DNA of 32,012 nucleotides from Pirellulaceae bacterium. GTDB taxonomy: Bacteria; Planctomycetota; Planctomycetia; Pirellulales; Pirellulaceae. The position numbers and the translations under genes were made by a program. The DNA is taken from NCBI GenBank assembly GCA_028066335.1, contig JALCBQ010000021.1, positions 1-32,012 on the forward strand, given 5' to 3'. This document shows, one piece after another, positions 1,778 to 29,816 of the stretch. The notes beneath the pieces are model-generated. The model was not told the DNA's origin and ran no database searches. It saw only the letters and a list, made by a program, of their open reading frames with translations. The stretch's first letter is position 1. Each line of letters opens with the position of its first letter.

Positions 1778-3446
1778 ACCTGTCAGGAATGGCGAGATAG
1801 AGAGCATAGTCTTTGTTCTCTGTCTTGCCTTTTTTCGGGTATATTTGCTTGAATGTTGTTGGGACAATCGTGTCGTGCCTTGTTTTATCGAGAAGAAAAT
1901 AGTCGCACTCATATTTTTTCAGCAGCACGCGCAACTTCTCATCGCCGAGTGTATGCCATGCGCCTCCTTCCGGACCACACCATAAAGTCGCCTGGACCCG
2001 ACTTTTCCATTCGAGGACCGCTGTAGGGTCTTGGGGCATATCTTTGTAGGTAACGACCTCAGCCCGTTTTGCATACCATTTAAAGGTTTGTTGATGACGT
2101 GGTGTCAAAATGAGAGAATCATTGGGAATGTTGTTGTCGATCCATTGGCAAGTGGCTCGCCATGAGGCCGCCTGGCTGATCTGACGATCGTACCCTTTGG
2201 GGTCGTTTGCAATTCGCCCTTGTCCCTGAGCAATCGACTTCGGACGTGGATCTCGCCAATTTTCGTAAACTGGGCCAGAAATGACATAAACCCCAGTAAA
2301 AAGGAGAATTCCCCAAGCGACTCGCTGAGCACGGGGCCACTTTGTTCCATAAAGGAAAGCAACTATCGGCATTAAAAGACCGACTTGCATCGAAACGATA
2401 ACTTCTGAAAGACGAAACCAATAAAACCGGAGGAGGTTTACCTCTAACCATGAGCGGTCGGCCAGAAATTTATCAATACAAATCCCTGCAAAAGTAATTC
2501 CAAGGGTTGCCCCAGTAAAAAGAGTAAGTCTTTTTACTTTAAATCGAATCTCTTCCGAGATATTCTTCGATTCGCCCTGGAAAAAAAGACATGTTAAAAT
2601 TCCCCAAATAGCAACAAGAACAGCTTGCCGAAGAACATGGTGCGACGGCATTTTTGAAAAAAGAAGATGGTGTGGCAACCGTTCGTAGACCTGAATACGA
2701 TAGGCAGTTAGAAGAGTCTCTGCCGTCTCCCCTCCCGACATTTCAATTGCAGGTAGTAAACCACCAAGACTAAACACTCCCCCTAATAGCAGTGAGGGCA
2801 ACATTTTTGGGAACGAAATTTCTCTTCTTCCAGCTATCCCCCAAACGGCAAAGGCTGCAATGGCACCCCATCCACCAACGACGACGTGCCATGCTGAAGC
2901 AATTCCCAGTAGTGGCCAGGCAATTTTCCAGCGGTTGGCGAGAATAGCTTCTAGACCATAAAGTAAGAAGATATATGCAAAACATTTCGCTTCAATCCCA
3001 CCAATAACCCATTCACCAGCCATATGGTAACGAGATAGAATCCCCATAAAGAGTCCAAGGGTTAACACAGAGAGACCGGCAGGAAACCTCATTTGCCGGT
3101 TCAGTCTTTGCCAGGCGTGTGCCAACAATAACCAAGACAAAATGCGTCCTATCCAGGCCGTCGTTTCTAAGGAGAAAATGGTCGTACAAAGGCCGATTGT
3201 CCAGTAAAAAACCAGGTGTGTATCATGGGTGTCCAGAAAAAAGTCACCCTCACAAAAGGTAGCATCCCAATAATGTTTTGCCTTGCAAAGATAGTGCGCT
3301 TCGTTATCGCCGGGCGCTGCTCGTCCAGCAAATACAAATAGAATTAAAACAAGAAGGCTAAATTCAACCCATTTTTTCCATGTGGCGACAGGGGAGGGGG
3401 ACTCTTGAAAAAGTTTAGAGGAAAACCAACTATCAAAAAAGCTCAT
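1761..3446 (-). CDS. DUF6798-type polytopic membrane protein (GT-C-like)
   Basis: This 561-residue protein has many hydrophobic segments between residues 28 and 395 (for example 28-44, 95-112, 122-138, 183-205, 215-233, 275-290, 308-325, 345-365, 376-392) and a soluble C-terminal domain at about 425-561. The first loop carries acidic GDNEAHYL near residue 46. HDTHLVFYW (74-82) and WHVVVGGW (186-193) recall the planctomycete DUF6798 family. The soluble part includes LTPRHQQTFKWYAKR (447-461), as found outside the membrane in GT-C-type glycosyltransferases such as mannosyltransferases. Family membership is from memory of conserved motifs and the glycosyltransferase idea is inference only. The start ATG 3446 has no good ribosome site. 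The gene is divergent from prpB and overlaps merR tail to tail. Confidence 0.7.
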   Translation of the reverse strand: MSFFDSWFSSKLFQESPSPVATWKKWVEFSLLVLILFVFAGRAAPGDNEAHYLCKAKHYWDATFCEGDFFLDTHDTHLVFYWTIGLCTTIFSLETTAWIGRILSWLLLAHAWQRLNRQMRFPAGLSVLTLGLFMGILSRYHMAGEWVIGGIEAKCFAYIFLLYGLEAILANRWKIAWPLLGIASAWHVVVGGWGAIAAFAVWGIAGRREISFPKMLPSLLLGGVFSLGGLLPAIEMSGGETAETLLTAYRIQVYERLPHHLLFSKMPSHHVLRQAVLVAIWGILTCLFFQGESKNISEEIRFKVKRLTLFTGATLGITFAGICIDKFLADRSWLEVNLLRFYWFRLSEVIVSMQVGLLMPIVAFLYGTKWPRAQRVAWGILLFTGVYVISGPVYENWRDPRPKSIAQGQGRIANDPKGYDRQISQAASWRATCQWIDNNIPNDSLILTPRHQQTFKWYAKRAEVVTYKDMPQDPTAVLEWKSRVQATLWCGPEGGAWHTLGDEKLRVLLKKYECDYFLLDKTRHDTIVPTTFKQIYPKKGKTENKDYALYLAIPDRFNMSR

Positions 3447-3517
3447 AGGGCGGGCTATCTTGTCGAGGTGGGAACTGAGTCTTCGGGTGTCTAATTCCGA
3501 AAAACAAAAGGGGAGGC

Positions 3518-3554
3518 GGTATTGTATTGGGTATAGGGAAAAAGTTACAATACC
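3518..3554. promoter_or_regulatory. Perfect 9-bp inverted repeat in DUF6798/prpB divergent region
   Basis: GGTATTGTA at 3518-3526 is matched by its exact reverse complement TACAATACC at 3546-3554, separated by 19 bases. The dyad sits between the divergent starts at 3446 and 3582, ending 27 bases before prpB. The placement fits an operator for a dimeric regulator, or a hairpin in the prpB leader. No regulator gene is adjacent. Confidence 0.4.
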
Positions 3555-3581
3555 ACTACGACTGCTTTCAAAAATTTTATA

Positions 3582-4463
3582 ATGGAAACAATGACCACAA
3601 CACCATCTTTAGCGAAGGGGCTTCGTGAAAAGGTCGCCCAGGGAACACTCCAGGTTCCTGGTGCCCCTAACGCACTTGCTGCAAAACTTATTGAAAAACT
3701 TGGGTTCCCGGCTCTATATCTCTCAGGAGGTGCTTTTTCGGCAGGGACTCTTGCGTTCCCTGACATTGGCCTTTTTACCCTGACCGAGCTTGTTCAAGAA
3801 ACACGTCGTATTGCCAGTAGTACGACTCTACCCCTTCTCGTCGATGCCGACACCGGTTTTGGCAGTGAGGTCAACGTAAGAAGAACGGTCGAAGAACTCG
3901 AACAGGCGGGCGCTAGCGCCATTCAGCTAGAAGACCAAACGCTTCCTAAACGTTGTGGCCACCTTTCTGGAAAGACGCTCGTCCCTATCGAAGAAATGTG
4001 TCAGAAAATCGCAGCGGCAAAGAGAGCTCAGAAAAATCCTGAAACCGTTCTTATCGCCCGAACGGACGGTTGTGGTGTCGAAGGCTTCGAGTCGGCCATT
4101 ACCCGGGCCAAGGCTTATGTAAGTGCAGGAGCCGACTGGATTTTTCCAGAAGCACTTCAGACAAAGACAGAATTCGAAAATTTTTCAAGAGAAGTCTCGG
4201 TTCCTCTCTTGGCAAATATGACCGAATTTGGCAAAAGTCCACTTCTTACTTCAAATGAATTAAAAGCTTTGGGCTACCGTATTGTTTTGTATCCTGTTTC
4301 CCTCTTGCGAGCTGCAATGTTCTCCATGGAGCAACTTCTCACAACAATAAAAGAGCATGGTACCCAACAGCCGATGCTCAAGCAAATGCAAACACGAGAA
4401 GAACTTTACGATCTTCTCGGCTACCACGACCATCCTCCCGAAGATTCTCGCCATTTTTCCTAA
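3582..4463 (+). CDS. prpB: Methylisocitrate lyase
   Basis: PrpB cleaves 2-methylisocitrate to pyruvate and succinate in the cytoplasmic methylcitrate cycle for propionyl-CoA. The 293-residue product has the isocitrate-lyase/PEP-mutase fold. VPGAPNALAAKL (25-36) and YLSGGAFSA (46-54) are substrate-loop motifs. VDADTGFG (87-94) holds the metal-binding acidic residues. KRCGH (123-127) has the catalytic Cys125, in the form typical of PrpB rather than the longer glyoxylate-cycle AceA. Length is normal for PrpB. ATG 3582 has little ribosome site; ATG 3591 has GGA upstream and is an alternative. It is followed after 95 bases by a citrate-synthase gene, which supports the methylcitrate role. Confidence 0.92.
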   Translation: METMTTTPSLAKGLREKVAQGTLQVPGAPNALAAKLIEKLGFPALYLSGGAFSAGTLAFPDIGLFTLTELVQETRRIASSTTLPLLVDADTGFGSEVNVRRTVEELEQAGASAIQLEDQTLPKRCGHLSGKTLVPIEEMCQKIAAAKRAQKNPETVLIARTDGCGVEGFESAITRAKAYVSAGADWIFPEALQTKTEFENFSREVSVPLLANMTEFGKSPLLTSNELKALGYRIVLYPVSLLRAAMFSMEQLLTTIKEHGTQQPMLKQMQTREELYDLLGYHDHPPEDSRHFS

Positions 4464-4558
4464 TAATATTGGCATAAGAGGCCTGACGGTAGTATTCCAT
4501 CCATTTTTATATATAAAGAAAATTCTCAATTTTTACAATAAACAAGAAGGGGAAACCG

Positions 4559-5668
4559 ATGGCTGAAATGATCTATTCACCAGGTTTAGAAGGGGTTATC
4601 GCAGGTGAAACTGCAGTCTGTACGATTTCAGGAGGCCTCTCTTATCGTGGCTATTCAATTGACGATTTATGTGAAAATGCGACTTTTGAAGAGGTCGCTT
4701 ATCTCCTCTTGGAAAACACTCCACCAGACAGCAGCCAGCTAAAAAAATTTAAAGCCGATTTGGCCGAAAACTATCGCCTTGACCCTCAATTAGAAGAGCT
4801 CATTCGCAAGTTACCTTCGGATATTCCAATGATGGACTATATGAGAACTGCCGTTAGCCTTGTAGCCCACTTTGACAGAGAGGTTGGCGATGATTCTCCC
4901 GAGGCGAGCTTGCGCAAGGCGACCCGACTTGTTGCTCAACTTCCTATTCTTTTGGCCTTCTACCACCGTCTTCGCCAAGGAAAAGAGCCTCTTGAACCAA
5001 GGGCAGAGGACTCATACGCCAAAAATTTACTACGGCTTCTTACCGGAAAAGAGCCGACTGCAGCCCACATTAAAGCAATGGATGTCTCATTAATTCTCTA
5101 TGCAGAACATGAGTTCAATGCCTCAACCTTTGCGACTCGGATCGTTTGCTCGACCTTGTCAGATTTGCATTCAGCAATTACTGCTGGCGTTGGAACTCTT
5201 AAGGGACCACTACACGGTGGAGCGAATGAACGTGTCATGGAAGTTCTCAGTGAAGTCGGCTCTTCTGAAAATGCCCCATCATGGGTGAGTGAGGCGTTGG
5301 CTCAAAAGCGACGCATTATGGGCTTTGGCCACCGTGTTTACAAAGAGGGAGACCCTCGAGCCAAAATACTCAAAGCGTACTGTGTCCCTCTTGCAAACGA
5401 AACCAATAACCAGGAAATGGAGACAATTGCCGACATTATTGAACAAGCTGTCAGCTCTGAAAAAGGGCTCCCACCTAATCTCGATTGGCCGAGTGCCCGC
5501 CTCTATTACTATATGGGGTTACCAATTGACATTTATACCCCACTTTTTGTTCTTAGTCGTGTCACTGGTTGGTCGGCTCACTATTTGGAGCAACAGGCGA
5601 ACAATCGCCTTATCCGCCCTCGCTCCAAATACACAGGAAAAGAAGGACTCAGGTGGCCAGCTAACTAA
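4559..5668 (+). CDS. prpC: 2-methylcitrate synthase / citrate synthase
   Basis: This is a 369-residue type II citrate synthase. The catalytic triad is visible as His219 in LHGGANE, His258 in GFGHRVYK and Asp309 in NLDWPSA. It condenses an acyl-CoA with oxaloacetate. The placement behind prpB argues that propionyl-CoA is the substrate, giving 2-methylcitrate. Sequence alone cannot exclude the TCA-cycle citrate synthase, and many family members accept both acyl-CoAs. The short form of about 370 residues matches PrpC and Gram-positive or archaeal citrate synthases rather than the 430-residue hexameric GltA. The ribosome site AAGGGG precedes ATG 4559 by about 7 bases. No prpD or acnD follows in the window. 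Confidence 0.85.
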   Translation: MAEMIYSPGLEGVIAGETAVCTISGGLSYRGYSIDDLCENATFEEVAYLLLENTPPDSSQLKKFKADLAENYRLDPQLEELIRKLPSDIPMMDYMRTAVSLVAHFDREVGDDSPEASLRKATRLVAQLPILLAFYHRLRQGKEPLEPRAEDSYAKNLLRLLTGKEPTAAHIKAMDVSLILYAEHEFNASTFATRIVCSTLSDLHSAITAGVGTLKGPLHGGANERVMEVLSEVGSSENAPSWVSEALAQKRRIMGFGHRVYKEGDPRAKILKAYCVPLANETNNQEMETIADIIEQAVSSEKGLPPNLDWPSARLYYYMGLPIDIYTPLFVLSRVTGWSAHYLEQQANNRLIRPRSKYTGKEGLRWPAN

Positions 5669-5893
5669 CTTGGAATAGCGATAGAGTATCTAAGGTTAAA
5701 AAAGTCCCGGTATAATTGATCTAATCGGACTCATTCTTCATGCCCCCAAATATTTTTCTCCTTCTTTTTTCCAGGTGATCGGGACCTTAGCTCGTGTCCC
5801 AACTGTATGCTACTGTAGATCAAACTCAGACCGATACAATCCAAAGAAGCTCCCGTCTGGCTGTTCCACAGAAGAAATCAAAGGATAACGAGC

Positions 5894-7006
5894 GTGACCA
5901 AATCAAATATTCGAGTCCTTGTCGTTGACGATTCTCCATTGATGCGTGCAATGATCGAAGATTGTATCGACGAAGCTCCAGGAATGGAAGTCGTTGGAAT
6001 GGCTGAAGATGGACAACATGCTGTTGAGCTCTCTGAAAAAATTCAGCCCGATGTAATAACTCTTGATGTTGAAATGCCCAAGATGAATGGGCTTGAAGCG
6101 TTGGACTTAATCTTTGCCCAAAAACCGATCGCTGTAATCGTTGTGAGCGCTCTTACCTCTTTTGGGGCAAATATCACCCTAGAGGCTCTTGAGCGCGGGG
6201 CAATTGACTTCATTCCTAAACCTTCGACCGAGCTTGGTTCGATCGAATCATGGCAAAACGAACTAACTCAAAAAATAAAATCGGCTTCCAAGACCGATCT
6301 CCAAAAAATTAGTGAACGCAGAGAACGTCACCAAGGTTCAAACTATAAATCAACACAGATTCAGGAGCCAGTAAAAAGTATTCCAGCGAATAACTACGGT
6401 GACAAAGTGATCGTCATTGGAATTTCAACTGGAGGCCCTCCTGCTTTGACCTCGTTGTTCGAAAATCTACGAGGCTCTCTACCACCAATTGTTATCGTCC
6501 AACACATGCCCAAAAGCTTTACAACCCCTTTTGCGGCCCGTCTAAACTCAATTACTGACCTTGAAGTCAAAGAGGCTACAACCGGGGACAAACTCGAGTC
6601 AAACTACGTTTACATTGCACCCGGTGGACAACATCTCTATATCCGTCCACACAAGGACGGTCGCACAGGCAGGTTAATTGTCAAAGGTGGAGAGTTAGTA
6701 AGTGGCCACATTCCTTCGGCCGATTTGACGTTTGAATGTGCTGCCGACGTCTATGGAGACCGGTGTCTTGGAGTCATCATGACTGGCATGGGCCGAGATG
6801 GTGCAACTGGCTGTGGTTATATTCGAAAAAAGGGTGGGTTTGTTCTCGGCCAAAACGAAAAAAGCTCTAGCGTTTATGGAATGAATAAAGCCGCTTTTAT
6901 CGAGGGCCATGTTGATCGACAATTCGACCTTGATTCTGCCTCTGATACTATCTGTGAACAGATTGAATCCCTGTGGGATGATCAACGTAATCAAGTTGCT
7001 CGATGA
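5894..7006 (+). CDS. cheB: Chemotaxis response regulator protein-glutamate methylesterase
   Basis: CheB demethylates (and deamidates) receptor glutamates for chemotactic adaptation. The 370-residue protein has a receiver domain (about 5-125) with DDSP (12-15), phospho-acceptor Asp58 in TLDVEMP and the conserved Lys109 in PKP. A linker at about 130-165 leads to a methylesterase domain (170-355) with Ser178 in GISTGG, His204 in VQHMP and Asp302 in TGMGRDGA. The full catalytic set is present. The start is GTG 5894 with AAGGA at 5881-5885. The neighbours are prpC upstream and a convergent thiO-like gene downstream. No cheA, cheR, cheW or receptor gene is in the window, so its partners must be elsewhere. 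Confidence 0.93.
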   Translation: MTKSNIRVLVVDDSPLMRAMIEDCIDEAPGMEVVGMAEDGQHAVELSEKIQPDVITLDVEMPKMNGLEALDLIFAQKPIAVIVVSALTSFGANITLEALERGAIDFIPKPSTELGSIESWQNELTQKIKSASKTDLQKISERRERHQGSNYKSTQIQEPVKSIPANNYGDKVIVIGISTGGPPALTSLFENLRGSLPPIVIVQHMPKSFTTPFAARLNSITDLEVKEATTGDKLESNYVYIAPGGQHLYIRPHKDGRTGRLIVKGGELVSGHIPSADLTFECAADVYGDRCLGVIMTGMGRDGATGCGYIRKKGGFVLGQNEKSSSVYGMNKAAFIEGHVDRQFDLDSASDTICEQIESLWDDQRNQVAR

Positions 7007-21092: not shown

Positions 21093-22127
21093 CTACCGCT
21101 CAGAGAGCCCTTGGAATATTTTCCAAATCGTAAGCGCTCCCAAACGGGCCGTTTGCCGATCAATATCAACTCGTGGATTGATCTCGACAAGATCAAACGA
21201 AGAACACATTTTGGACCGGCCAGCACAATAGGCCACCCTGAGCCAACGCTCTTTTGAAAGCCCCACCGCTGCCGGGGCACTCACACCTGGTGCAAAGGCT
21301 TGATCGACAGAATCCATGTCGAAAGTCACCATTTGAGGAGAGTCCATGTTACGATAAACCTTCTCAATAAACTCGTCGGTTACCTCCTCACAAAAGGCAT
21401 ACTCTCTCTTTGGCTCGCGCAAAAAGTCGAGTTGATCTTGCCCAACAGCAAAGGGGTTAAGACCATAAACACTATACTTAGAACAGACAGAATTCTCTAA
21501 AAAAAGGGCCTGACGAAATGGTGAACCACTATGCCCTTTTTTGACTTCATTCTCTTTCCCTCTTTTCAACGGCCTAACGTCGGTGTGGACATCCCAATTA
21601 ACGATTGACACTTCTTTTTGAGCTTTCTGGTATCCCAAAAAATGTCCATAAGCCGTTTCATGGCCACCACCCAAAATGATCGGCACAATCTCTCGTGACA
21701 ACAAAAAGGCGACGATTGCCCCTAGCTTTTCCTGAGCTTCTTCCATCGGTAACGCAAAAGGGTCGACCTTTCCCAGCGTAGTTAACGAGGCTTGTGCCAA
21801 CGACAAGTTACCCAAATCGACCGTACGAGACAAAATATTTTCAAACCGACCCTCTAATCGCACATCGGGGGTCATTTTATAGAGTTGCTCTCTGATTTCG
21901 TTTGGTGCATTCGCTGCACCGACACGTCCTCCATTTCGGCCAACACCAATATCACAGGGAAAGCCGACCAAGGCAAACTGATATTTGGCCCAATCGACCT
22001 CTTCGATACTTAAAGGACGAGAAATCCAATGTCCCAGACGCCGATCGGCTTCTGTTGTTGAAACCAGCGGGATCTTAGCGACAGAGGAGAGCGAAAATTC
22101 AGTACTCATAACAAAGCCATCGATCAA
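21093..22127 (-). CDS. hutG: Formimidoylglutamase (arginase/ureohydrolase family), last hut step
   Basis: This enzyme hydrolyses N-formimidoyl-L-glutamate to glutamate and formamide using a binuclear Mn centre. The 344-residue protein has the ureohydrolase metal ligands His156 in GGGHE, Asp179, His181 and Asp183 in NWDVHTDVRP, and Asp270/Asp272 in TFDMDSVD. GFPCDIGVGRNGGRVGA (55-71) is the family N-terminal motif. Agmatinase or arginase would share these residues. Its place as the last gene behind hutU, hutH and hutI makes formimidoylglutamase the best call. A gap of 91 bases separates it from hutI. The start could be ATG 22127 or the ATG at 22109; neither has a good ribosome site. Confidence 0.88.
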   Translation of the reverse strand: MIDGFVMSTEFSLSSVAKIPLVSTTEADRRLGHWISRPLSIEEVDWAKYQFALVGFPCDIGVGRNGGRVGAANAPNEIREQLYKMTPDVRLEGRFENILSRTVDLGNLSLAQASLTTLGKVDPFALPMEEAQEKLGAIVAFLLSREIVPIILGGGHETAYGHFLGYQKAQKEVSIVNWDVHTDVRPLKRGKENEVKKGHSGSPFRQALFLENSVCSKYSVYGLNPFAVGQDQLDFLREPKREYAFCEEVTDEFIEKVYRNMDSPQMVTFDMDSVDQAFAPGVSAPAAVGLSKERWLRVAYCAGRSKMCSSFDLVEINPRVDIDRQTARLGALTIWKIFQGLSER

Positions 22128-22218
22128 GTAAGACGTAACTCAACAATCTTCAAACAAACCCATTCTTTCAAAACCAATTTGCCAACAAATATGTTTTAGA
22201 ACGTTTTAGACAACTGAT

Positions 22219-23454
22219 CTAGACAAGGTCACCGTTGGCAACAACTTGTTTTCCCGAAATAAAAACGTCCGAAGTCCGATTCGGTTCAAAATGATAAAGC
22301 CAATGATCGATCGAAGGCGAATCTAAAATGACAAGGTCAGCTTTCTTACCAACCTCAAGAGAGCCTATCTCTTCCTCAAGGCCGATCGCTTTCGCCCCAT
22401 AAATCGTCGCCCCCTTAAGAGATTGCTCCGGGGTCATGTAACTCATAACGCAAGAGAGCATCATTGCTAAAGGTAAGTGGTAACTCGGCGCACTACCTGG
22501 GTTAAAATCGGTTGCTACGGCGACTTTGCCACCGGCACGAATCCATTTTCGTGAGTCAAGAGGTGGTTGTTTCAGATACAGGGAAGCGAGGGGTAGATTA
22601 ACGGCGACGACACCCGCCTCTACCATTTTTTCAATCCCCTCTTCAGAAGCAAATTCTAAATGATCGGCCGAAACCGCTCTCATTTCGGCAGCAAGCTCGG
22701 CTCCACCTCCCGAGGTGAGTTGATCAACGTGAAGCTTTGCCTTTAGACCATATTTCTGCCCACAGGTTAAAAAGCGGCGCCCCTGATCTATCGAATAGGC
22801 TCCCTCTTCCACAAAAACATCACAAAAGGTCGCTAGTTTTTCCTCGGCGACCTGAGGCAACAACTCTTCACACAACAGGTCAAGGTAACCATCAGGGTCT
22901 CTTTTGTACTCTGTAGGAACGACGTGGGCCCCTAAGAATGTCGAGACAATTGTTTGAGGGACAATTTTGGAAAGTTGTTGATAAACACGGAGGGTCTTTA
23001 ATTCAGACTCGGTTGAAAGGCCATACCCCGACTTGCACTCGATCGTCGTCACTCCCAACTTTGCCATTTTTTGGGACTGCTCCTGGCAATGGGCCAAAAG
23101 AGTCTCTTCACTCGCCCCACGAAGCTGTTCGACCGAACAGGCAATTCCACCACCTCTTTTCGCAATTTCAAGATAACCAACCCCTTGGCATCTCATGGCA
23201 AATTCGTTCTCCCGCCATCCACCAAATGCAAGGTGCGTATGACAATCGACCAAACCCGGAATGACAATCTGCCCTTTAGCGTCAATAACCTCTTCGGTGT
23301 GAGGGAGATCGGCAGGAAGGTCTGCCTCCTGGCCTACCCAGATGATTTTTCTGCCATGCCATACGATCGCCGCATGATCGATCGTTCCGATTTCGTTGGC
23401 CTCTCCATGGAGAGGGCAGGTGTAAAGCGTTTTAATATTTTTAAGAAGAGTCAC
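22219..23454 (-). CDS. hutI: Imidazolonepropionase
   Basis: HutI opens the imidazolone ring of 4-imidazolone-5-propionate to give formimidoylglutamate. This 411-residue amidohydrolase has GLVDCHTHLAFGG with metal ligands His72 and His74, GAHVVP (His177), KLHVDQL (His242) and the metal Asp316 in ATDFNPG. All match the family. The start is GTG 23454, only two bases after the hutH stop, so translation is likely coupled. The ribosome site GAGG lies inside the end of hutH. Length is standard. Confidence 0.95.
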   Translation of the reverse strand: MTLLKNIKTLYTCPLHGEANEIGTIDHAAIVWHGRKIIWVGQEADLPADLPHTEEVIDAKGQIVIPGLVDCHTHLAFGGWRENEFAMRCQGVGYLEIAKRGGGIACSVEQLRGASEETLLAHCQEQSQKMAKLGVTTIECKSGYGLSTESELKTLRVYQQLSKIVPQTIVSTFLGAHVVPTEYKRDPDGYLDLLCEELLPQVAEEKLATFCDVFVEEGAYSIDQGRRFLTCGQKYGLKAKLHVDQLTSGGGAELAAEMRAVSADHLEFASEEGIEKMVEAGVVAVNLPLASLYLKQPPLDSRKWIRAGGKVAVATDFNPGSAPSYHLPLAMMLSCVMSYMTPEQSLKGATIYGAKAIGLEEEIGSLEVGKKADLVILDSPSIDHWLYHFEPNRTSDVFISGKQVVANGDLV

Positions 23455-23456
23455 GG

Positions 23457-24968
23457 TTAGACGACCTCAATATTATGTTCGGCGAAAAGGTCTAAAACAG
23501 TGCAGGAGCGAACAATCGAGAGCGCTTCATGGAGTTCGTCTTGAAAAATATAATCGGCTTCACGGTGAGGGATTTGGCGACGGATATGTCGGTGCATAAG
23601 CTCGACACCATGACCTGGCCGTAAGGGATGACGGAAATCAAGTGCTTGTGCTGCGGTGAGAAGTTCAATCGCAAAGATATGCTCGACATTCTCAAGGACT
23701 TGCAACAACTTGACTGCACCGATAGAGCCCATACTGACATGATCTTCTTGACCGAGGCACGTCGGTATAGAATCGACAGAGGCAGGATGGCAAAGGACTT
23801 TATTTTCAGAGACGAGCGACGCAGCCGTATATTGGGGGATCATAAAACCCGAATTAATACCGGTCTCTTTCATCAGGAGGGTCGGCAAACCATCGTGCCC
23901 TTCAAGCAAAAGGTAAATCCGACGTTCCGAAATCGAGGCCAGCTCGGCAAGGGCGATCGCCGCCTGGTCAAGTACAAGTGCCAATGGTTGGCCATGAAAA
24001 TTACCACCACTAATAATGTCGCCGTTTGGGAAAACGAGTGGATTGTCTGTCACCGAGTTGATCTCGGTCTCCACAACACCCTGACAATAGGCCAAACTTT
24101 CACGACTAGCGCCATGAACCTGAGGAATACAACGGAGGCTGTAGGGGTCTTGAACTTTACCACAATGACGATGAGATTCGAGGATTTCACTACCGGCAAG
24201 GAGATTACGAAGGTTTTGCGCCACCTGCTGTTGGCCGGCGTGGGGACGAATTTCGTGAACTCGCGCGTCGTACGGTGCGACACTTCCCTGGAGCGCTTCC
24301 AGAGAAAGGGCTGCCAATATATCGGCCATCGAAACAAGTCGCAAAGCTCTCTCTAGCACATAAGCACCGTGAGCCGACATGAGCTGTGTCCCGTTAATGA
24401 GCGAAAGACCATCTTTGGCCTGAAGGTCGATCGGAGAGATTTTTTTCTGTGTAAAGATCTCTGCTGTCGGAATCGTCGCTGTACCGGCTTCGTTCCACAC
24501 CTCACCGAGCCCCAGAAGTGGCAAACTTAAATGGGCCAACGGAGCAAGATCACCCGAAGCGCCGACCGAGCCTCGTTTGGGTATGGCTGGCACCAGGTCA
24601 TGTTGGGCCAACGTTATAAGTTGCTCAAACGTCTCTACAGAAATTCCTGAAAAACCAAGTCCAAGGGCATGTATTTTCAGTTTGAGCATAAGGCGGCTGA
24701 TCTCTTTGGAAACAAAGTCGCCAACTCCGACCGCATGACTTAAAATCAGATTCCGCTGAAGTTGCCCCAACTCGTCGCTGTTAATCCGCTTCTGCGCTAA
24801 AATACCAAAACCGGTATTAATGCCGTAGTAGGCTTTGCCATCTTCGATTGCCCGCTGAACAACCTGGCGCGACCGAACAACAGGCTCAGGATTCTTGCCC
24901 AGCTCATCAATTCGGCTCTTGAGGTCTTTATAAAGACTTCTTAAAGAAATATGGTTTGTCATTGTCAT
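23457..24968 (-). CDS. hutH: Histidine ammonia-lyase
   Basis: HutH deaminates L-histidine non-oxidatively to urocanate and ammonia. The 503-residue protein has the Ala137-Ser138-Gly139 tripeptide in GSVGASGDLAPLAH, which cyclises to the MIO electrophile. YGINTGFG (48-55), the QEDHVSMGS stretch and SVTDNPL are also present, all hallmarks of the aromatic-amino-acid lyase family. Length matches HutH (about 500) rather than PAL or TAL, and the hut neighbours confirm histidine as substrate. ATG 24968 or the ATG two codons later may be used. It lies 116 bases after hutU and abuts hutI. Confidence 0.96.
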   Translation of the reverse strand: MTMTNHISLRSLYKDLKSRIDELGKNPEPVVRSRQVVQRAIEDGKAYYGINTGFGILAQKRINSDELGQLQRNLILSHAVGVGDFVSKEISRLMLKLKIHALGLGFSGISVETFEQLITLAQHDLVPAIPKRGSVGASGDLAPLAHLSLPLLGLGEVWNEAGTATIPTAEIFTQKKISPIDLQAKDGLSLINGTQLMSAHGAYVLERALRLVSMADILAALSLEALQGSVAPYDARVHEIRPHAGQQQVAQNLRNLLAGSEILESHRHCGKVQDPYSLRCIPQVHGASRESLAYCQGVVETEINSVTDNPLVFPNGDIISGGNFHGQPLALVLDQAAIALAELASISERRIYLLLEGHDGLPTLLMKETGINSGFMIPQYTAASLVSENKVLCHPASVDSIPTCLGQEDHVSMGSIGAVKLLQVLENVEHIFAIELLTAAQALDFRHPLRPGHGVELMHRHIRRQIPHREADYIFQDELHEALSIVRSCTVLDLFAEHNIEVV

Positions 24969-25084
24969 TCGTTATTAGTCCGCCCTTATAGGCAAATTTC
25001 TTAGGGCTAATCAAGAAAATAAAAGGGGAACAAATTCCACGGCCTCAGCTTAAGGAGAAGCTAGCAAGACGAAGGACCCTAAAA

Positions 25085-26758
25085 CTACTTTTTCAACATG
25101 GGAATATCGACTCCCAAGTCTCGAGCCGTCTGTTTGGCTATCTCGTAACCAGCGTCAGCGTGTCGGGCAACTCCCATCCCTGGATCACAAGTCAAAACCC
25201 GCTCAAGCCGTTCATCGGCCATTGTTGTTCCATCGGCGACAGAGACCATTCCGGCATGGATCGAGTAACCAATACCGACTCCACCACCATGATGGAGCGA
25301 GACCCAACTAGCACCACTAATCGAGTTGATCATTGCATTAAGAAGTGGCCAGTCGGCAATCGCGTCTGAACCATCTTTCATCGCTTCGGTTTCGCGATTG
25401 GGCGAAGCGACCGAACCACTATCGAGGTGATCTCGCCCAATGACGATCGGCGCTTTTACTTTTCCCTTTTTAACGAGCCAATTAAACTTGGCCCCCATTT
25501 CAGCCCGTTCTCCGTACGAAAGCCAACAAATTCGGGCCGGTAACCCCTGGAACTGGACCTTCTCCTGGGCCTTGTGAATCCAACGGGCAAGGGACTCGTT
25601 CCCTGGAAACGTTTCGAGAAGGGCAGCATCGGTCACGGCGATATCATTTGGATCACCCGACAGGGCGGCCCAACGGAACGGCCCCGAACCTTTACAAAAA
25701 AGAGGACGGATAAAGGCTGGCACAAAACCTGGAAAATCGAAGGCATCTTTCATATTTCGAAGATCGTGAACTTGACCACGGAGGTTGTTCCCATAGTCAA
25801 AGGTAACAGCCCCTTGTTTTTGCAGATCAAGCATGGCACGTACATGAACCTCCATTGAGTCCAAAACGGCCGATTCGTAACCTTCTGGATCGTTAGTGCG
25901 GAACGTTGCCGCTTCTTCCAGTGAATAGCCGACCGGTATATAACCTTGCCGCAGGTCGTGTGCCGAAGTTTGGTCGGTCAAAACATCAGGGCAAATGCCA
26001 CGATTAACAAGCTCTGGCACAACCTCAGCAATATTTCCAACAAGGCCGACCGATAGAGGAGTACCCTCCTTTTTTGCTTTCTCTAGTAGAGAGAGAGCTT
26101 CGTTAAGGTCTCTGGAAAGGATGTCACAATACCCCGTCTCGACACGGCGTTGAATACGGGTCTCATCAACATCGACCCCTAAAAAGGCAGCCCCCATAAG
26201 AGTTGCCGCAAGTGGTTGGGCACCACCCATTCCTCCAAGGCCACCAGTAACGACGAGTCGGCCGGTCAGGGTACCACCATAATGTTGTCTTGCACATTCA
26301 GCAAAAGTCTCGTAAGTCCCCTGAAGAATCCCTTGAGAACCGATATATATCCATGAACCGGCTGTCATTTGGCCGTACATCGTCAGCTCAAGTTGCTCGA
26401 GCCGTCGGAATTCTTTCCAGTCCGCCCAGTTCGGCACCAAATGAGAGTTGGCAATCAACACACGGGGAGAATGTTCATAAGTTCGGAAAACAGCGACTGG
26501 CTTCCCACTTTGAACCAACAGTGTTTCGTCATTTTCAAGACGTTTCATGGTATTAATAATTGCATGGTAAGACTCCCAGTTTCTTGCCGCTTTACCCGAA
26601 CCTCCATAGACAATTAAGTCTTCGGGGTGTTCAGCAACATTTGGATCGAGGTTATTCATTAACATCCTCATTGCTGCCTCTTGGTGCCACCCCTTGCATT
26701 GCAGAGTCGATCCATGAGGAGCCGTTATTGGTGTATGAGGATTTGAAAGGGTAGACAT
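25085..26758 (-). CDS. hutU: Urocanate hydratase
   Basis: HutU adds water to urocanate, giving imidazolonepropionate, with tightly bound NAD+ acting as electrophile. The 557-residue protein has [11 protein letters not shown] (51-61), the NAD-binding [14 protein letters not shown] (171-184), active-site Cys411 in [10 protein letters not shown] and the signature [20 protein letters not shown]. Length is typical. It is the first gene of the hut cluster, so the operon promoter should be upstream of 26758. AAGGA/AGG sequences precede the ATG. No hutC- or hutP-type regulator and no histidine transporter is seen in the window. Confidence 0.97.
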
Positions 26759-27340
26759 CTATACCTATTCCTTTTTATTTGTCGATCAGAAATGTGTCAC
26801 CTGGAACACGCCAGTGAAGAGGGCTCTCGATTGGTAATGGAACGGCCTCATATTTACCATGGATATCTATCCTTCAGATCGCCCAGATTAACAAACTGAA
26901 TTAACAAACTGCCAGACTGGAAGATAAAAGTTTAGAGGATAAAATCAGGGTAAAAATAGGGTCGATGAGGGGGATTTTCCTTACCTATCGATACTCTTCC
27001 TGTTCGCCTCCTAAGATACTAACAGGGGGGGATTCGTAAAGAGAAGAAATCTGATACGGAGGGAATCTCTGAGGAAATTATTGTAAAATCGTAAGATATT
27101 CGAAAATTTCTCTAGGCAATGGAAATCTATTTTCGTTATATTGGGCTCGTGCTAGGGTATTTCGCTTGGGAAAATGGGAACCCTTCTCATTTTGGCACGT
27201 ACATAGTAGAACGGGTTCAAAAGCTGCTGATAATCTTGTTCAACCGACCTGAACGCCCTTTATCTATCATCAATCCTGTGACCGGGGACTAAAATCGGTC
27301 AATTTTTGTTTTATTCGAATTTGTTTCAAAGGGACTTACG
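26759..27340. other. 582-bp divergent region between hutU and the thioredoxin-fold gene
   Basis: This should contain the hut promoter (minus) and the promoter of the gene at 27341 (plus). I cannot assign -35/-10 boxes with confidence. Notable are the 12-base direct repeat at 26887-26911, a 6-bp hairpin TGACCG/CGGTCA (27279-27284, 27296-27301) followed by ATTTTTG just before the plus-strand gene, and several G-runs near 27027. No coding frame is supported. Confidence 0.5.
26887..26911. repeat. Two direct copies of ATTAACAAACTG upstream of hutU
   Basis: ATTAACAAACTG occurs exactly at 26887-26898 and 26900-26911, a 13-base period. It lies about 130 bases upstream of the hutU start. It may be a tandem regulator site or a chance duplication. 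Confidence 0.5.
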
Positions 27341-28360
27341 ATGAAGAAAACTGACCTCCTGAAAGGTATGTTCACCTTTCTTGCCGTTTTCACCTTGGCT
27401 ATTCCAACAGTTTTTGCTGGTAGTGATGGCTGGGAAACGGACATGAAAAAGGCAAAGGCAAGAGCGGCTGCTGAAGGCAAAGACCTTCTTATCGACTTTA
27501 CCGGCTCCGACTGGTGTGGTTGGTGCATTAAGCTTGATGAGGAAGTCTTTAGCCAAGACGAGTTCAAGAATGTTTCACCAAAGAACTTTGTCCTTGTCGA
27601 GCTCGACTTTCCTAGAAAAACAGTTCTCTCCGACGAATTGAGGGCTCAAAATGCCGCGATGGCAAAAGAGATGAATGTCAGAGGGTACCCAACGATTATT
27701 CTCGCTGATGCCACTGGTAAACCGTATGCCAAGACTGGCTACAAACCTGGTGGTCCGGTCCCGTACAACGAGCACCTGGCTGAACTTCGTGAAAAACGAA
27801 TTGCTCGTGACGAAGCACTCGCAACTGCCGAAGAAAAATCGGGGGCAGATCGAGCGAAACACCTCGCCTTGGCACTTAAGGCTGTTGGAAACGAACTCGC
27901 TTTTTCGAGTCACTATTCCGAACTCGTTGACGAGGTTATCTCTCTTGATGCCGAAGGTGCTGGTGCTCCTCTCGTAGCAGAAAGAAAAGCGGTCGAGTTC
28001 AAAAAGGTTCTTACTAAAGCTACCCGTACCAGAGATCCAGAAGTAGGTCTCAAAAACATTGATGACCTTATTGCCAGTAGTGGTGCCACGGGCAAAGCCC
28101 TTCAAGAAGCCTACATGGCCAAGGTCAACTTTTACATTGCACTTGATAATGAAACAGAAGCTCTTAAAGCTATTGATGCAGCCGTTGCTGTCAAAGATGG
28201 AGATCCAGCAATGGCGGCCCAGGGCGCAGCATTTAAAACCCGAATACAGGGAATTTTCGCCCGAAACCGTCAAGCTGAAGAGAGAAGGAATGCCCAAAAA
28301 GGGAATGATGCCAAAAAAGGAGATGGCAAAAAAGGGGACGGTAAAAAAGGGGACAAATAG
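27341..28360 (+). CDS. Exported thioredoxin-fold protein with CxxC and Lys/Gly/Asp tail
   Basis: This 339-residue protein has a signal peptide at 1-26 (hydrophobic FTFLAVFTLAIPTVFA). A thioredoxin-like domain (about 30-150) contains the redox motif DWCGWC with Cys59 and Cys62, and the cis-proline loop RGYPTIIL. A helical region (about 160-300) with TPR-like regularity follows (EAYMAKVNFYIALDNETEALKAIDAAV), ending in a basic tail of repeated KKGDG units. It is likely a thiol oxidoreductase in the extracytoplasmic space, of the thioredoxin_7/DUF255-like type common in planctomycetes; the substrate is unknown. The ribosome site AAGGGA precedes ATG 27341. A clear terminator follows. The next gene is a paralogue. 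Confidence 0.87.
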   Translation: MKKTDLLKGMFTFLAVFTLAIPTVFAGSDGWETDMKKAKARAAAEGKDLLIDFTGSDWCGWCIKLDEEVFSQDEFKNVSPKNFVLVELDFPRKTVLSDELRAQNAAMAKEMNVRGYPTIILADATGKPYAKTGYKPGGPVPYNEHLAELREKRIARDEALATAEEKSGADRAKHLALALKAVGNELAFSSHYSELVDEVISLDAEGAGAPLVAERKAVEFKKVLTKATRTRDPEVGLKNIDDLIASSGATGKALQEAYMAKVNFYIALDNETEALKAIDAAVAVKDGDPAMAAQGAAFKTRIQGIFARNRQAEERRNAQKGNDAKKGDGKKGDGKKGDK

Positions 28361-28420
28361 TCACCGTTACCTCCCAAACATCAACAAACGAATAACCTGT
28401 TGATAACTTGGCAATGAATT

Positions 28421-28454
28421 AAAGAGAGCCTAGGGAATACCTTGGGCTCTCTTT
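28421..28454 (+). terminator. Rho-independent terminator after the CxxC thioredoxin-fold gene
   Basis: AAAGAGAGCC (28421-28430) pairs exactly with GGCTCTCTTT (28445-28454) about 60 bases after the stop codon, with a further pairing AGG/CCT inside. The T-run is short. Confidence 0.65.
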
Positions 28455-28493
28455 CTAATTCTAACTCTCTTTCTAATTCCAACTTTCTAATTC
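28452..28493 (+). repeat. Three copies of TTTCTAATTC
   Basis: Exact copies lie at 28452-28461, 28470-28479 and 28484-28493, immediately after the terminator stem. They form a short imperfect tandem repeat, probably from slippage. Confidence 0.6.
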
Positions 28494-28740
28494 TAAATTA
28501 GAGCCCTTCTGGTGTAGAAATCCCTAAACCTAACTAAATAGATACAAATCTTTTCGAAAATAGCGACAGGAAAGGGCGACTCGTGGATACGTCCGTGCAG
28601 ACAGGGGAAGCCTCTCGTTTATCTTTCTCTATTTTGATAAGATAATCGGCGTGATAACGAAGAGCGAATTCGCTTCTGATCCTAGCCTATTAACAACACA
28701 TTTATAACAATACATTTACCTTTTGCATTGTACGGCAAAA

Positions 28741-28745
28741 AGGAG
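28741..28745 (+). promoter_or_regulatory. Ribosome binding site AGGAG fixing the start at 28752
   Basis: AGGAG lies 6 bases before ATG 28752. The longer frame would need TTG 28728 and would add eight polar residues before the signal peptide, so 28752 is preferred. Confidence 0.75.
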
Positions 28746-28751
28746 CCACCG

Positions 28752-29816
28752 ATGGGATCTCGATTTTTTCAGATAGTTATTTTGGGAACACTCGTTACTT
28801 TGACCTTGGGCCTAGCCTCTGTTAGAGCAGACGAAGGCTTTTGGCAGACTGACTATCTCAAGGCAAAAGAGGCTGCCAAGACACAAGAAAAAGATTTATT
28901 CCTCTGCTTCTCTGGCTCAGATTGGGACGGTTGGTCGATTGAGCTAGAGGAAAAAATTTTGAGCAATACCGATTTCCAGAAAAAAATTGGTGAACGATAT
29001 GTTCCGGTCAAAGTCGATTTTCCGCAAGAGATTGAGCAAACTCAAAAGCTCAAAATCCAAAACAAAGAGCTCGGACAAAAATTTGAAGTTAACGACTACC
29101 CGGTTATTTTGTTACTCGATACCCAAGAACGTCCCTTTGCCCGAACTGGCTATCGCGAAGGGGGTATTTCTGCCGTTGAGCGATTTTTAGCTCAAGGAGC
29201 ACAAAATAAACTCCGGCGTGACGAAGCCTTTTCCAAGGCAAAGAACGAAACCGGCCTGGCGAAAGCTCGCCTCCTTGACAGCGCACTCTCTGCCATTGGC
29301 GGGCTCGTAACCCACTCTAGTTACCAAACGACAATCGACCAGATCCTTGCCCTTGATACCCAAAACGAAGCGTTACTTTTTGCTAAATATTCCGAGATAA
29401 TCCGCGCGACCGAATTTCAACGTGGCATGACAGCTGCCCAGACATTGGCACCTGCCACAGGGCTCGCCGAAATCGAAAGACTTATCGAAAAATATGCTCC
29501 AACGGAGCGAGAAATGGTTCAAGTCAACAACGTCCAATTCTTTTTACATGTTGCAATGGTAGACGCATATGACCTGCAGAAAGAGCACAAAAAGTCGGTC
29601 GATAGTCGTAAAAAGGGGATCGCCTCTATCGAAGCGATTCTTAATAACCGATATCTCCCGCCACAACTCGCTGGCGACTACACCCGCCTGCGAGACTTTC
29701 TAAAACAAGATTTAAAAGAAGAGCTCGCCTGGCAGGAAAAAGTAGCTCGCACAAAAAAAATGAAAAAAGATGACTCGGAGCAGAAGGGGAATATTAAAAA
29801 GAATGAGGCAACCTAG
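28752..29816 (+). CDS. Exported thioredoxin-fold paralogue lacking the active-site cysteines
   Basis: The product is about 354 residues with a signal peptide (FFQIVILGTLVTLTLGLAS, cut near VRADEG). The domain order copies the preceding gene: thioredoxin-like domain, helical region, basic tail. The active-site segment reads SGSDWDGWSIEL where the neighbour has TGSDWCGWCIKL, so both redox cysteines are replaced (Cys to Asp and Cys to Ser). The cis-proline segment NDYPVILL is kept. It cannot work as a dithiol oxidoreductase, so a binding, chaperone or regulatory role is inferred. It has its own AGGAG ribosome site and is separated from its paralogue by a terminator, so it is probably transcribed alone. 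Confidence 0.85.
   Translation: MGSRFFQIVILGTLVTLTLGLASVRADEGFWQTDYLKAKEAAKTQEKDLFLCFSGSDWDGWSIELEEKILSNTDFQKKIGERYVPVKVDFPQEIEQTQKLKIQNKELGQKFEVNDYPVILLLDTQERPFARTGYREGGISAVERFLAQGAQNKLRRDEAFSKAKNETGLAKARLLDSALSAIGGLVTHSSYQTTIDQILALDTQNEALLFAKYSEIIRATEFQRGMTAAQTLAPATGLAEIERLIEKYAPTEREMVQVNNVQFFLHVAMVDAYDLQKEHKKSVDSRKKGIASIEAILNNRYLPPQLAGDYTRLRDFLKQDLKEELAWQEKVARTKKMKKDDSEQKGNIKKNEAT

Follow-up and report, generated by a model that had tools for sequence, protein, structure and literature searches.

Our analysis revealed that, within the 32,012-nucleotide stretch of DNA examined here (the window), two adjacent genes encode homologous thioredoxin-fold proteins, P0001 and P0002, of which the second has lost its redox site; comparison of the two established their homology, the loss of that site, the retention of the predicted fold and long-term constraint on P0002. 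The explanation that we favor, and to which we would give an even chance, is that P0001 is a DsbD-fed thiol reductase and P0002 a redox-dead paralogue retained to bind clients, the two having arisen by an old tandem duplication. Such a pair would represent a rare bacterial case of an exported thiol oxidoreductase beside a redox-dead paralogue of the same architecture, and it offers a direct route to ask, in an abundant and uncharacterised class of thioredoxin-TPR proteins, if clients are bound by the TPR and groove parts independently of redox chemistry.

Gene arrangement and divergence of P0001 and P0002

The gene for P0001 (27341..28360, plus strand; 339 aa) is an intact open reading frame preceded by a Shine-Dalgarno-like AAAGGGA (27328..27334, plus strand; 6 nt 5' of the ATG at 27341), and its product, with CxxC intact, comprises a DsbH-like thioredoxin domain (approximately residues 28 to 146), a TPR-like helical domain and a Lys-rich tail. 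The gene for P0002 (28752..29816, plus strand; 354 aa) is likewise intact, and encodes a paralogue without CxxC that has a thioredoxin fold, a helical domain and a Lys-rich C terminus. In its longest form this second frame opens with TTG at 28728; we took ATG 28752 as the preferred start because a perfect Shine-Dalgarno sequence, AAGGAG (28740..28745, plus strand), lies 6 nt upstream. Read by eye, both N-termini are signal-peptide-like, so that both proteins appear to be exported. Between the genes lies a 15-bp stem-loop (28421..28454, plus strand; -24.2 kcal/mol, z -5.8), probably a transcription terminator; no shuffled sequence was as good, its T-tract is short, and it was absent from the output of a consensus terminator scan. 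A separate ribosome site for each gene and a terminator between them, as proposed in an earlier sequence-only reading of this DNA, were therefore both recovered, the terminator as a probable one. At 21093-26758 of the window, on the minus strand, are genes that resemble a histidine utilisation cluster by sequence reading only (formimidoylglutamase-like, imidazolonepropionase-like, histidine ammonia-lyase-like and urocanase-like).

This arrangement bears on whether P0002 serves specifically to partner or regulate P0001, either as a heterodimer or as a competitor for P0001 clients or for DsbD. We regard such a role as possible but rather unlikely: the two genes are adjacent, in the same orientation and of the same architecture, as a partnership would predict, whereas the individual Shine-Dalgarno sequences and the probable terminator argue against one operon.

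P0001 and P0002 were 32% identical over 275 aa (151 bits, far over chance), with 37% identity in the thioredoxin domain and 26% in the helical domain, confirming that their similarity extends beyond the thioredoxin fold. The sequence-only reading had signal peptide, cis-Pro segment, helical domain and basic tail all conserved; the cis-Pro and the helical domain are indeed kept in both proteins and both N-termini look like signal peptides, but the Lys-rich tails are alike in character and not alignable. More specifically for divergence, identity at codon positions 1, 2 and 3 was 0.49, 0.61 and 0.30, respectively; of the 41 fourfold sites in residues common to both proteins, 17 were equal. Both replacements at the former CxxC, Cys to Asp (GAC) and Cys to Ser (TCG), lie at least 2 base changes from either Cys codon. 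Because second positions remain 61% identical although silent changes have almost reached saturation, P0002 is, on this codon evidence, neither a pseudogene nor a recent lesion, but an old duplicate under protein-level selection.

Redox site and predicted structure

The motif DWCGWC of P0001 (27509..27526, plus strand) aligns with a degenerate DWDGWS at the same place in P0002 (28920..28937, plus strand), as had been noticed previously. To count conserved positions, we used 47 columns conserved at ≥90% in 55 relatives, a set that left out P0001, P0002 and a cysteine-less protein described below (L157). P0001 retained 45 of these 47 columns and P0002 36, the losses of the latter being L50F, D52C, T54S, C59D, C62S, E68K, V69I, F70L, G115D, G126E and Y142V. 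Retained in P0002 are W31, D57, W58, W61, the GY..GG loop and the cis-Pro, P117 (29100..29102, plus strand; 27689..27691, plus strand, in P0001), with Gly115, two residues earlier, changed to Asp.

Asp52 of P0001 (27494..27496, plus strand) is the Asp of DFTGSDWC, and we take it, from motif alignment and general knowledge, to be the equivalent of thioredoxin D26; the buried Asp of thioredoxins has a supporting role in the redox site. In P0002 this position is occupied by Cys52 (28905..28907, plus strand). Thus, P0001 has all three features of an oxidoreductase that we considered (CxxC, supporting Asp and cis-Pro), and P0002 has the cis-Pro only. With both cysteines, the Asp-equivalent and neighboring residues gone, P0002 is, judging from its residues, incapable of dithiol-disulphide exchange at its former CxxC site. 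Since further redox-pocket residues have been lost and the scaffold kept, we consider it a maintained redox-dead paralogue rather than the product of a local mutation. The earlier claim that both CxxC cysteines are lost therefore holds, but it made no mention of C52, the sole cysteine in P0002. This residue could provide a thiol for protection or sensing, as in E. coli CnoX, which forms mixed disulphides via a cysteine outside its SXXC (PMC6282202). We consider that role improbable, as residue 52 lies in the modeled strand before the active-site loop (E48-54), where it is expected to be buried, and the other members without both cysteines carry L or N, not C, at position 52.

Both proteins matched the Pfam families Thioredoxin_7 and Thioredoxin_2 above cut-off (for Thioredoxin_7, PF13899, 52.5 bits for P0001 and 33.3 for P0002 against a gathering cut-off of 27). 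Their top NCBIfam model was DsbH (NF043050), at scores of 100 and 83 bits, respectively, neither of which reaches the equivalog cut-off of 190; the CxxC of DsbH-type proteins is present in P0001 and absent from P0002. Chlamydia DsbH (PDB 2ju5) was the best solved relative by sequence for both. AlphaFold models (mean pLDDT 92.5 for P0001 and 90.7 for P0002) predicted a thioredoxin fold followed by stacked helical hairpins in each case, and 2ju5 ranked first in Foldseek for both models, consistent with a DsbH-type thioredoxin fold; VIA-align placed the P0002 model on 2ju5 with a Z of 18.7 and an rmsd of 1.8 over 123 residues. The second rank for P0001 was the thioredoxin-TPR protein YbbN/CnoX (PDB 3qou), the YbbN-type match of P0002 was weaker (E 4e-3), and AGR2/AGR3 chains were among the structural matches of P0002. 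In both models the TPR domain thus comes C-terminal to the thioredoxin domain, as in CnoX/YbbN, a likeness of architecture only and not of sequence membership.

Proposed roles and comparison with known systems

In the explanation that we favor, an exported DsbH-like thioredoxin-TPR gene, presumably the common ancestor of the pair, would have been duplicated in tandem long ago. P0001, with its whole redox site, would be a thiol reductase acting outside the cytoplasm, with DsbD recharging it, assuming export and DsbD coupling. P0002, after the loss of both cysteines, the Asp-equivalent and neighbors, would perform no dithiol-disulphide exchange at that site; with fold, cis-Pro groove and helical domain kept, it would probably work by binding clients or partners, with no redox chemistry involved, in the manner of a holdase or adaptor. 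The genome yielded five Thioredoxin_7 matches, namely, P0001, P0002, DsbD, a YyaL/DUF255-like protein (SSCHWC) and a 459-aa protein (SCPPC), of which only P0002 lacks CxxC. The DsbD combines its transmembrane domain with a thioredoxin domain that has the motif DWCGNC, and hence a possible reductant for P0001 is encoded. The idea of a neofunctionalised non-redox protein is partly supported: the data support a maintained redox-dead paralogue, with binding as its putative role.

Among known systems, Chlamydia DsbH is closest to both proteins in family and structure, being of the same thioredoxin subtype (30-34% identity, rmsd 1.2-1.8 A). In contrast to it, P0001 and P0002 possess an added TPR-like helical domain and a tail and score well under the equivalog cut-off, and P0002 is without CxxC. 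The cysteine-deficient PDI-family proteins AGR2 and AGR3 resemble P0002 in that the thioredoxin fold is kept, CxxC is wholly or partly lost and, as proposed for P0002, the roles are in binding, but they are eukaryotic ER proteins with no TPR domain and no close sequence kinship. ERp29 and calsequestrin are further cysteine-deficient members of that family. The chaperedoxin YbbN/CnoX, like our pair, joins an N-terminal thioredoxin domain to C-terminal TPR-type helices; however, it passes clients to DnaK and GroEL and is thus cytoplasmic, whereas the sequences of P0001 and P0002 place them in the DsbH group and their N-termini suggest export. E. coli CnoX, a thioredoxin-TPR protein with SXXC, is a holdase with no oxidoreductase activity, while Caulobacter CnoX has reductase activity (PMC6282202). 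We take the E. coli protein as the precedent for the role proposed for P0002. A literature search on planctomycete periplasmic thioredoxins found nothing of use.

Relatives and cysteine loss elsewhere

We searched for orthologues of P0002 in a genome set that included no congener of the window genome. None was found in 241 same-family genomes, in an order sample of 397 genomes, in species-level genome contigs searched with P0002 alone, among the best 80 loci of an alignment search of species-level genome contigs, or in viral contigs; the L157 protein was the sole member without both cysteines in those best 80 loci. Outside its own genome, the best match of P0002 among the 241 family genomes was a CxxC protein of genome G100 (35%, 155 bits), which was also the best match of P0001 (50%, 210 bits) and whose gene neighborhood had no neighbors in common with the window. 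The match tables of the 241 genomes contained no other P0001/P0002-like tandem, so that synteny of the pair was not borne out in these family genomes.

The P0002 branch is long (1.57-2.28), and its exact position in the tree is tentative. These features, together with the lack of an orthologue in our searches and the weaker YbbN-type match of P0002, count against the favored explanation. Two unconstrained trees paired P0002 weakly with the G100 CxxC protein; a pairing with the long-branch L014 in a first tree was treated as long-branch attraction. Constraining P0001 and P0002 together raised the likelihood by 6.4 log units relative to the unconstrained quick tree (p-AU 0.61), and a tandem origin is thus plausible and compatible with the trees, the AU test not being proof of a clade. 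The fast branch and the lack of an orthologue in the family, order, species-level and viral searches would also suit a decaying duplicate heading to a pseudogene. We find this highly improbable, given the intact 354-codon frame with its Shine-Dalgarno sequence, the near-saturated silent sites set against conserved second positions, the 36 of 47 conserved positions kept, losses that include a redox-pocket cluster, and the confidently predicted fold.

After removal of duplicates, both cysteines were absent in 4 of ~180 relatives, a rough rate since these relatives are the best matches to our queries. The four are P0002 (DxxS), L039 of G170 (PWDETS, also DxxS), L157 (DWSSGS) and L025 (DWSRES), the last fused to a protease-like domain. 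By parsimony, the first cysteine changed no fewer than 4 times on the sampled tree, which shows that pseudo-enzymes of this type arise repeatedly, and a single ancestral loss common to P0002, G170 L039 and L157 was rejected (p-AU 0.005). Complete cysteine loss is thus rare yet recurrent in the sampled relatives. Cysteine loss was associated with loss of the Asp (Asp present in 114/171 with CxxC versus 1/11, Fisher p 2e-4), an association that partly reflects relatedness because 25 of the 171 CxxC relatives also carry Leu there.

At the L157 locus (Akkermansiaceae bacterium SS_bin_91, 3259-5900), the gene for an SxxS thioredoxin-TPR protein lies immediately upstream of one for a paralogue with DWCGWC. 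By the sequence comparisons, this CxxC/SxxS tandem is independent of the P0001/P0002 pair. Its SxxS protein has also lost the equivalents of D52, T54, C59, C62 and G115; beyond the cysteines, 4 lost conserved positions are common to P0002 (9 lost) and L157 (8 lost), an overlap that is suggestive only (p ~0.04, by hand count). A second such tandem, in another phylum, adds to the case for P0002 as a dedicated partner of P0001, whereas G170 L039 is a cysteine-less member with no tandem partner. The latter (L039/L214, G170:C4) is a family relative, a long DsbH-like protein whose congeners carry DWCPPC. Three other Akkermansiaceae tandems of DsbH-like genes (L212, L210 and L211, in G600, G549 and G559, respectively) have CxxC in both copies. 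One might generalize that, among exported thioredoxin-TPR proteins of planctomycetes and verrucomicrobia, tandem duplication has repeatedly yielded an active reductase alongside a binder that is redox-dead. This would mirror the CnoX split outside the cytoplasm, with the two jobs in two proteins of one cell; we think this unlikely.

Several further observations concern individual relatives. The upstream frame of L157 runs on into a Pro-rich, coiled-coil-like C terminus. The motif SYSSFP of L020 was discounted as a cysteine loss, since it belongs to a weak second stretch within a protein that does have CxxC. L015, L018 and L025 are large fusions in which the DsbH-like thioredoxin domain has degenerate cysteines, and L015 and L025 additionally appear to carry a zinc-ribbon-like N terminus and a trypsin-like protease domain.
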